Assembly (NCBI GenBank): GCA_000237975.1
Contig: CP003179.1
Span: forward strand, 868,001 to 932,000
Reading direction: 5' to 3'
Length of the DNA stretch: 64,000 nucleotides
Origin: Sulfobacillus acidophilus DSM 10332
GTDB lineage: Bacteria; Bacillota; Sulfobacillia; Sulfobacillales; Sulfobacillaceae
The notes below the pieces were generated by a model, which saw nothing but the letters and a program-made list of their open reading frames with translations, searched no databases and was not told where the DNA came from. The position numbers were made by a program, and so were the translations under genes. Of the stretch, positions 45,194-47,599 are shown one piece after another; position 1 is the stretch's first letter; each line of letters starts with the position of its first letter.

Positions 45194-46198
45194 TTATTGG
45201 GCTACCGACCCGAGCTCGGGATCTAGCTGCCGCATGAGGTGATCCAAACTCATCTTGAGGGCGCGGGCGATTTGGGAGGCGACGTTCAAAGGAATGGCGC
45301 AGTGATCGGATTCGTAGGCTTGAATCGCTTGTAACGGAACGCCGGCTAGTTTGGCTAAGCGTTCTTGACTTATCTGTTGATGCTCCCGCAAGGCCCGTAA
45401 TCGGGCTCCGTACCCGGTATGCCGATGGGTTCGAACACTGCCTAACGCTTCTTGAAAGCGGCTGAGACTGCCCCATTCGCGCAAAATGGCGGCCTTCAGC
45501 CGGGGATGGCGGCGAAACGCTTGCTCGAGCGGAAAGCCTGCGGCCACATATTCGATAACCACCGCCATCATGCTGTCCTTGGTCCAAGGTCGGTTGCCCA
45601 CCACATCTTCATAGGAAATGCCGGCCTGGGTGACGGCAACGGCCCAGGATCCAAAGTAGGTTTGGGCCGCACCATATAGTGCGCGGTGGTGGCGGCGGGC
45701 GACCGAGTCGCGAAGTTGGGACCGATCCGATGCGGCAATGGACTGGATGGCTTCGATAATTTGCTCGGCACTCCGCGGGGTGGTCCGGCGAATTTGCTGT
45801 GGATCTAATCCGGCCGCCTCGAGGGCTTCGGCCCAGGAACCAAAATGGTACGTCGCGGCCGCCAATAAGGCATTGTCGGTTTGTTGCATGTGATGGGCAT
45901 GGAGCGGGTGATCTTGTTCCGCATAATATCGAATCGACGCCACGATGCGTTCACGGGTCCAATAGCCCGGAGGACGGCGGACGCGTCGAGGGCGGCAACT
46001 GGCCGGGTCGATACCCGAAGCCTCGAGACAACGGTTCCAATGGCCAAAATACCGCCGGGCGGCCGCTAACAACGCCGAGTCGTCTCGGGCTACCGCTTGG
46101 GCGTTTAGCGGACGGCCCGTTTGATGGCGCCAACGAACCTTTTCGATAATTTCTTGGCAAGACCATTGGTGACGTGAGTGAGCCGGGCCGGATGACAC
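45194..46198 (-). CDS. XRE-family regulator with homing-endonuclease-associated repeats (334 aa)
   Basis: Residues 10-250 contain four copies of a roughly 60-residue unit. Each has a helix, an x-DxALLxAAxxYFGSW-like core (RYFGHWNRCLEASGI, YHFGSWAEALEAAGL, TYFGSWAVAVTQAGI, the fourth degenerate) and a short link. This matches the homing-endonuclease-associated (HNH_repeat) type thought to contact DNA. Residues 262-320 are a standard XRE helix-turn-helix (LRALREHQQISQERLAKLAGVPLQAIQAYESD). There is no nuclease domain. The start is GTG 46198 with a G-rich stretch upstream. It precedes three unknown genes on the same strand by 80 bases. Confidence 0.75.
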   Translation of the reverse strand: MSSGPAHSRHQWSCQEIIEKVRWRHQTGRPLNAQAVARDDSALLAAARRYFGHWNRCLEASGIDPASCRPRRVRRPPGYWTRERIVASIRYYAEQDHPLHAHHMQQTDNALLAAATYHFGSWAEALEAAGLDPQQIRRTTPRSAEQIIEAIQSIAASDRSQLRDSVARRHHRALYGAAQTYFGSWAVAVTQAGISYEDVVGNRPWTKDSMMAVVIEYVAAGFPLEQAFRRHPRLKAAILREWGSLSRFQEALGSVRTHRHTGYGARLRALREHQQISQERLAKLAGVPLQAIQAYESDHCAIPLNVASQIARALKMSLDHLMRQLDPELGSVAQ

Positions 46199-46349
46199 GA
46201 TGGATTCCCCCGATCGTCAGACGTTCTATTAGCAAATACGAAACCCATTCGGCCCTTGGATCACCTCCGAGAAAAAATTCCTTTCGATGAGGGAATTTTC
46301 GTGATACGTGGAATTAGGAATTATTAGATATAATGAAACCGGGAGGGGG

Positions 46350-46931
46350 TTGTCTGTCACGTTTCGGGCCAAGCGGCCAAGCCGCGAAGACGCCAACCAA
46401 TTGATTAAACGCGTGGCATATGGGGATATGGATGCCTTGCGGGCTATTTACGACGCCTACAGTCCCGGTGTCTACAGTCTCGCCTTTCGACGACTGGGAG
46501 ACGCCGGAACGGCTGAAGAAGTGGTGCAAGACGTCTTTCTCCGTGTATGGCATGCGGCCCCTCAGTGGAATGATTCGCGTGGACCGTTTGAGTCGTGGTT
46601 GTTTGTGGTGGCCCGTAATCTGATTTACGATCGGTTGCGAGAAAAACAACGGCATGGGCATATGGTCACGGATACGACCTGGGATGTCATGGGTGATGTC
46701 CCGATACCGGATCTCGTATCGGACACCATTATCGACACCGATACGACAGCGCACCTGCTGGAAGGGTTGTCCCGCGAACAACGGGAAATTGTCACCATGA
46801 TTTATGTGGACGGGTTCACGACCGCGGAAGTCGCCCAGATGAAATCCATTCCCCAAGGTACGGTCAAAAGCCGGCTTCGGTTAGCGTTAGATCATTTACG
46901 GCGCCATCTCACGGCGAAGGAGGTGGAATAA
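46350..46931 (+). CDS. ECF-type RNA polymerase sigma factor (193 aa)
   Basis: Region 2 at about residues 20-90 (YDAYSPGVYSLAFRRLGDAGTAEEVVQDVFLRVW and FESWLFVVARNLIYDRLRE) and region 4 at about 130-190 (LSREQREIVTMIYVDGFTTAEVA, then IPQGTVKSRLRLALDHLRRHL). The pattern matches the SigK/RskA-partnered group. GTG 46308 also opens the frame, but a TATAAT at 46329-46334 lies downstream of it and GGGAGGGGG directly precedes TTG 46350, so I prefer the latter. It is followed two bases later by its anti-sigma factor. Confidence 0.88.
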   Translation: MSVTFRAKRPSREDANQLIKRVAYGDMDALRAIYDAYSPGVYSLAFRRLGDAGTAEEVVQDVFLRVWHAAPQWNDSRGPFESWLFVVARNLIYDRLREKQRHGHMVTDTTWDVMGDVPIPDLVSDTIIDTDTTAHLLEGLSREQREIVTMIYVDGFTTAEVAQMKSIPQGTVKSRLRLALDHLRRHLTAKEVE

Positions 46932-46933
46932 CC

Positions 46934-47599
46934 GTGGCTCTTTGTGAAGCGGAATATTTGGCCTTGCGCTATCTGGCCGGTGATTTGGATACGCAGGAAC
47001 AAGAACGGTACCGTAAGCATGTGGCGAGTTGTTCGGCCTGTCAAATGGCCTATCGGGATGCTTTAAGTTGGACCGACGGGGTGGTGTGGCGACATGGTCA
47101 AAAAACCCCGCCCGGGCGGGTATGGCGGGCCATTCGCCGCCGGATCGGTGCCCCGGTTTGGCGCGTGTGGGTGTCCAGTGCCGCCGTAACGGTGGTGGCG
47201 CTGGTGATGGGATTAGCCTTGGGGCACTGGGTGGGCTATCGCCAAGGGGCGCATGTGGCTACCACTCATCCCGCTTATTTGGCCGCCACGTTAAAGCCGC
47301 CGACGCCCGATGCGGGTCTGGACGGACATGTCCTGATTGTGCCGCAAGCCAATCGCATGGTGATGATGATTGTGGGCATTAACGCGCCGGCTCCCGGTCA
47401 GGTCTATGAAGCGTGGACGTTAGGGGATCAAGGCGCAGTTCCGATTGGCACCCTGAAATGGAAAGACCATGTTGCCTGGTATATCGGTAAAGCGCAAGTC
47501 AGCCCGGGCGACCAAGTGGTGGTCTGCCAAGAGTATGTATCGTGGGTTGGAGAATGGATGGGTCCGGAAGTCGTCGGGGCCACTTTGCCTTCGACCTAA
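46934..47599 (+). CDS. membrane anti-sigma factor, RskA-like (221 aa)
   Basis: An N-terminal zinc-associated anti-sigma motif H29-x3-C33-x2-C36 binds the sigma factor in the cytosol. A single membrane helix (about residues 77-98) and an external anti-sigma-K domain (PQANRMVMMIVGINAPAPGQVYEAWTLG) follow. The GTG start is two bases after the sigma stop with AAGGAGGTGG inside the sigma gene, giving coupled synthesis. Release of the sigma factor by proteolysis is the known mechanism of the family; the signal here is unknown. Confidence 0.86.
   Translation: MALCEAEYLALRYLAGDLDTQEQERYRKHVASCSACQMAYRDALSWTDGVVWRHGQKTPPGRVWRAIRRRIGAPVWRVWVSSAAVTVVALVMGLALGHWVGYRQGAHVATTHPAYLAATLKPPTPDAGLDGHVLIVPQANRMVMMIVGINAPAPGQVYEAWTLGDQGAVPIGTLKWKDHVAWYIGKAQVSPGDQVVVCQEYVSWVGEWMGPEVVGATLPST

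Follow-up and report, generated by a model that had tools for sequence, protein, structure and literature searches.

An array of homing-endonuclease-associated repeats fused to an XRE domain, encoded opposite an ECF sigma factor gene in Sulfobacillus acidophilus

Regulators with an XRE/HTH_3 domain, among them the controllers C.BclI and C.AhdI as well as P22 c2, SinR and DdrO, resemble the protein considered here in the fold and profile of its C-terminal domain; those that have been characterised carry, to our knowledge, oligomerisation, peptide-binding or protease-like partner domains, and none is known in which four 60-residue modules stand in tandem. TAL effectors and TALE-like proteins resemble it in being built of tandem modules that share one scaffold and differ from repeat to repeat at a few positions, but TALE repeats are two-helix units of 33-35 aa, while the modules described below are about 55-68 aa long and have four to five helices. 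A published screen for TALE-like proteins considered only repeats of 30-43 aa (PMC5472282), and because of this limit would have skipped arrays of HNH_repeats. The latter belong to the Pfam family HNH_repeat (PF18780, homing endonuclease associated repeat), which has apparently gone unstudied, the one mention that we found being in a modelling table that lists repeat families whose structure is not known (PMC8078820). Both domains are known, and a literature search that reached a minority of subscription papers found no paper describing HNH_repeats combined with an XRE domain; this agrees with an earlier note on this DNA, which knew of no characterised protein with such a layout.

The gene lies in a window of 64,000 nucleotides of Sulfobacillus acidophilus DSM 10332 (contig CP003179.1, positions 868,001 to 932,000), at 45194..46198 on the minus strand, as do all of its domains. 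It starts with GTG and encodes 334 aa, which the ORF, Pfam and a structural model resolve into four HNH_repeats and an XRE domain. The protein scores 60.6 bits (E = 1.9e-16) for HNH_repeat and 41.1 bits (E = 1.8e-10) for HTH_3, above the Pfam cut-offs of 26 and 23 bits respectively; a permissive scan delimits three HNH_repeat stretches, two of them individually below 0.01. Repeat 1 (residues 8-73; 45980..46177), repeat 2 (residues 74-139; 45782..45979), which is the best-conserved module, and repeat 3 (residues 140-202; 45593..45781) are defined by Pfam, the family alignment and the models; repeat 4 (residues 203-258; 45425..45592) is degenerate, with a weak profile, and is placed by alignment and model; the XRE/HTH_3 domain (residues 259-330; 45209..45424) follows from the Pfam profile and a fold match. 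Successive repeats are spaced by about 60-68 residues. Pfam detects no HNH or other nuclease domain in the 334 aa, so that the protein shares its tandem modules with the HNH_repeat family but differs from an HNH homing endonuclease in lacking HNH and in carrying an added XRE domain. The earlier note had described just this arrangement, four HNH-type repeats of about 60 residues with an XRE domain and no nuclease, and the Pfam scores, alignment and model bear it out; the profile search, which might have led to an unrelated, non-DNA-binding fold, led to HNH_repeat. Since repeats and XRE occur together in homologues at 31-47% identity, the frame is neither a chance ORF nor a frameshift fusion.

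The homologue search covered 60 relatives, and the alignment holds 35 members. Pfam finds no HNH match in any of these 35, and the nuclease-free state is the rule in the aligned family, no oddity of this gene. Four repeats followed by XRE are found in the window gene and in L038-L040; four repeats, XRE and a PAS domain with conserved cysteines in the L043-L056 group, from the same family-level group (33-36% identity to the window protein); four repeats alone, with neither XRE nor a sigma neighbour, in L041 and L042. The remaining layout consists of three repeats, without repeat 4 and XRE, in proteins of about 205 aa that are present in several copies in some genomes. In the family tree, which has an arbitrary root and long-branched distant rows, the gain of PAS appears as a single event and 20/22 three-repeat proteins fall in one clade. 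The three-repeat forms are likely to have arisen from a full-length ancestor by losing repeat 4 and XRE, although with such a root and such branches this direction is not proven.

HNH_repeats also occur in other settings. The same family-level group contains a further nuclease-free type (L077:9477-10550, L028, L029, L031), with five HNH_repeats and then a short C-terminal HTH-like segment, and a genome of the same class contains a 670-aa frame with many degenerate HNH_repeats and no other convincing domain (L073:4445-6454). Chromosomal genes with three to five HNH_repeats and no nuclease are found in family-level group f118 (L108-L121, L130-L135), where nearly every genome searched yields two to four matches. 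HNH and repeats coexist in one protein in L079. In the S. acidophilus genome itself (two contigs totalling 3,557,831 bases; C1 has 3,472,898), an HNH_repeat match of 29.7 bits (L002, C1:44571-44705) falls within a helicase-like protein that also has a PLD-like region; this match could be due to chance or to a single embedded repeat.

Opposite the repeat-XRE gene, on the plus strand, lie an ECF sigma factor gene (46308..46931; by inspection its true start is perhaps the TTG at 46350) and a gene for an RskA-type anti-sigma factor with a zf-HC2 domain (46934..47599). An ECF sigma gene is divergent from the family gene in eight loci that span two layouts, four repeats with XRE (window, L038, L039, L040) and three repeats (L051, L052, L064, L065), and it is followed by an anti-sigma gene in all of them but L064, where none was recognised. 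The sigma frame of L065 was dropped by our crude gene caller; the anti-sigma gene was kept there, and L065 and L052 have matching upstream DNA. In L061 a sigma/anti-sigma pair is located directly upstream, in the same direction as the family gene. Sigma linkage is seen in 9/35 aligned loci, some of which are close relatives of one another. Several three-repeat members adjoin two-component genes, encoding a GAF histidine kinase and a GerE-domain response regulator. The PAS-bearing members differ from the window gene in adjoining COX1/COX2/COX3 genes rather than a sigma gene. Heme-copper oxidase genes stand next to the repeat-XRE-PAS genes of L043, L044, L046, L047, L049, L050 and L053; reading by eye, we recognised in these loci two further genes whose products have a PAS-like, cysteine-containing region and a LuxR-type HTH; a C...(Y/F)C...CP motif is common to these products and to the PAS domain of the repeat-XRE-PAS proteins. 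Together these oxidase-linked proteins are possibly a redox or metal sensor set.

The reading towards which we lean, as somewhat better than an even bet, is that the protein is a soluble sequence-specific transcription regulator in which the XRE domain binds an operator and the repeats lengthen the contact, and which is expressed from an ECF sigma promoter as the output of the circuit. The RskA-type anti-sigma factor would hold the ECF sigma factor until a signal arrives; once released, the sigma factor would transcribe the regulator gene from a two-box motif, GTGATCC-N18-GTATT. The C-terminal XRE domain would then bind one or more operators, as in phage repressors and restriction-control proteins, with the four N-terminal HNH_repeat modules extending the contact to flanking DNA and helix 3 of each facing it. 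The repeat-XRE protein would in this way be an output, and perhaps also a feedback regulator, of the sigma circuit. What we observe are the domains, the predicted fold, the conserved divergent arrangement and a conserved two-box motif confined to loci with an adjacent sigma gene; that the motif is a sigma promoter, that the repeats bind DNA, that the protein acts as a repressor or activator, and what its target genes would be, we infer.

An AlphaFold model of the 334-aa protein (mean pLDDT 88.8) consists of four copies of one helical module and an XRE fold, the relative placement of the modules not being fixed, given the low pTM of 0.49. According to this model and to one of repeat 2 alone (pLDDT 86), the module comprises about 60 aa in four helices and a short fifth; the helices of repeat 4 (207-219, 224-230, 232-242 and 245-254) copy the pattern of repeats 1-3. 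The XRE domain has the five-helix Cro/C1 fold, and its matches are solved DNA-binding repressors and restriction controllers, with Z up to 12.7 (C.BclI, rmsd of 2.5 over 75 residues). A fold search of the PDB with the model of repeat 2 gave a best Z of only 4.3 and nothing informative, and comparison of the repeat profile to PDB sequences found no solved relative; DNA binding by the repeats rests therefore on the family context. It is conceivable, if rather unlikely, that the repeats stay off the DNA and serve as a scaffold for oligomerisation or partner binding, leaving the XRE domain alone to read the operator, as might be suggested by this want of a solved DNA-binding match for a single repeat, by the near-neutral pI of repeats 2 and 3 (7.2 and 6.6, in a repeat region that as a whole is basic, with pI 10.0) and by the position of a sensor domain after XRE in the PAS relatives. 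A scaffold does not sit well, however, with the fact that most relatives consist of repeats only, have no other DNA-binding domain, and occupy the same divergent spots by sigma or two-component genes, nor with the namesake context of the repeats, which according to the Pfam description, and as in the HNH protein mentioned above, is that of DNA-recognising homing nucleases.

The conservation of repeat-specific residues in helix 3 also argues against a scaffold. Positions that differ among repeats 1, 2 and 3 and yet are near-constant across the 35 proteins fall mainly in helices 2-3, and include offsets -10, -7, -6, -3 and -2 from the Phe of the FGSW motif; such clustering is what a recognition helix would be expected to show. 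Within the aligned family the repeats are conserved, not reprogrammed, and since members next to sigma, kinase and oxidase genes all keep the repeat-specific residues, the sites read by the family are probably related. The extended, programmable-looking DNA contact proposed in the earlier note is plausible but unproven.

Returning to expression of the regulator from a sigma promoter, the putative -35 box GTGATCC (46258..46264, minus strand) is followed 18 nt downstream by the putative -10 box GTATT (46235..46239, minus strand). GTGATCC is present upstream of the family gene in 8/8 divergent sigma-linked loci and in 0/27 other loci, and in the eight it belongs to GTGATCC-N18-GT[AT][ACT][CT] or a sequence close to it, which in every case points toward the family gene. 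In a search of 686 kb, 10 matches were obtained with a spacing of 18, as opposed to 0-4 at each of 16 other spacings. Two of these 10 precede a lipoprotein-like gene beside L039/L040, a location that fits a sigma promoter better than a private operator. The whole genome contains four exact copies of GTGATCC-N18-GTAT, of which only that of the window is outside long ORFs; the other three overlap such ORFs and are probably due to chance. In having two boxes exactly 18 nt apart, the downstream one of GTAT type, the motif resembles an ECF promoter. Because the motif has this two-box form and spacing, is found only with a sigma gene, and stands also before a different gene, it looks like the promoter of the adjacent ECF sigma factor, and the gene at 45194..46198 is most likely a target of that factor.

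Alternatively, GTGATCC-N18-GTATT might be no sigma promoter but the operator of the repeat-XRE protein itself, through which the protein would control both its own gene and the divergent sigma operon. Such an arrangement would account for the presence of the motif in the shared intergenic region only where both genes occur, and for the overlap of 46235-46264 with the place expected for the promoter of the sigma gene. We consider it improbable, in view of the fixed, unidirectional two-box form, of the copies before the lipoprotein-like gene, and of the absence of the motif at sister loci that have the family gene but no sigma gene. The term regulator, used in the earlier note, has gained strength from the conserved ECF sigma/anti-sigma linkage, the sigma-type promoter motif, and the PAS relatives beside oxidase genes.

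Operators were sought by expectation-maximisation over 23 upstream regions. The motif GGCCCTTTGGCC(C) scores higher for the family than for control regions (56.4 versus 37-49.5), but in the intergenic region of the window it is not significant, ranking 69 of 127,974 in an unbiased motif search, and we therefore claim no operator there. As for AAGGGCCNAAYGGCC, also tried as a window motif, its 3 matches compare with 1.9 expected, and it was rejected. An inverted repeat seen by eye upstream of the -35 box (46271..46300), GAAAAAATTCC...GGAATTTTC, is a possible operator. A conserved element of the GGNCCYWWTGGCC type is present upstream of three-repeat kinase-linked and four-repeat genes (L045, L058, L059, L063, and also L041), and would be a candidate operator.

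The earlier note had suggested looking for the architecture in other acidophiles. The sister genera do contain the XRE fusion, with full-length conservation, intact frames and 43-47% identity; the suggestion was nevertheless too narrow, the fusion being found also in Brevibacillus and phage contigs, and equally narrow was the view that these repeats are usually attached to HNH nucleases, as nuclease-free arrays occur there and on Bacillus plasmids. Repeats and XRE are present on a Brevibacillus plasmid (L095), with an identical sequence in a prophage contig near endolysin and holin genes (L086), and on L097, a plasmid of Alicyclobacillus; two viral contigs carry them as well, near an integrase-like gene (L087) or terminase-like genes (L088), the neighbours on these two having been identified by eye. 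In the plasmid records such proteins are annotated only as 'helix-turn-helix transcriptional regulator'. The plasmid protein WP_173600033.1 of Brevibacillus sp. HD3.3A, whose sequence is also that of the prophage contig (L086:4566-5945), is 35% identical to ours over 94% of the query; it differs in its phage/plasmid setting and in having an extra region with weak HTH similarity fused to its N-terminus. On phage contig L088 (4537-6068) the repeat-XRE gene comes after a small HTH-like gene. Although the identical layout on plasmids and phage contigs could point to the domesticated remnant of a repressor from a phage or plasmid, one that now does little, the intact, conserved full-length frames of the sister genera and the conservation of promoter and neighbours make this hardly credible.

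Much longer arrays are found on Bacillus plasmids. In P0003, a protein from a B. subtilis plasmid, 15 HNH_repeats closely resemble one another, the exceptions being offsets -13, -7, -6 and -3 and, less markedly, -5, -12 and other positions. A frame of 872 aa with 15 HNH_repeats lies at L096:1483-4101 (B. subtilis plasmid NZ_CP061871.1), and one of 986 aa with 17 at L140:501-3461; like the former, the latter is hypervariable at a few positions of helices 2/3. Matched repeats in another plasmid retain the residues at the variable positions, 3.3% being changed, versus 88% when repeats within one protein are compared. The differences between strains are of whole repeats (15, 17, 14 + 6), somewhat in the manner of TALE arrays. 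In more distant plasmids the variable positions change faster than the rest of the repeat; we make no dN/dS claim for the 15-repeat array, as its synonymous sites are saturated (dS about 3). Overall, this is what one would expect of a modular reader evolving through the gain, loss and retargeting of repeats. Offsets -7, -6 and -3 differ between repeats in the window family and rank among the most variable in the 15-repeat protein, with three of the top four shared out of nine positions; this coincidence of variable helix-3 positions would arise by chance in about 17% of cases, as calculated by hand, and is only suggestive.

A wider proposal, speculative and in our judgement doubtful, is that arrays of HNH_repeats constitute a natural system of modular DNA reading, distinct from TALE repeats and zinc fingers, in which each module of about 55-60 aa would read a short segment through helix-3 offsets -7, -6 and -3 (from the Phe of FGS[WF]). 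Cells, phages and plasmids would employ the arrays in homing by joining them to nucleases, in regulation by joining them to XRE, PAS or other HTH domains, or would use them on their own. If the repeats do read DNA, a nearly unstudied family would turn out to be a new kind of DNA reader built of several modules and already fused in nature to nuclease, XRE, PAS and other HTH domains. A compact test system is at hand in the sigma-linked members, with one promoter, one regulator and one sigma/anti-sigma pair, and the oxidase-linked PAS members suggest a role in respiratory control.
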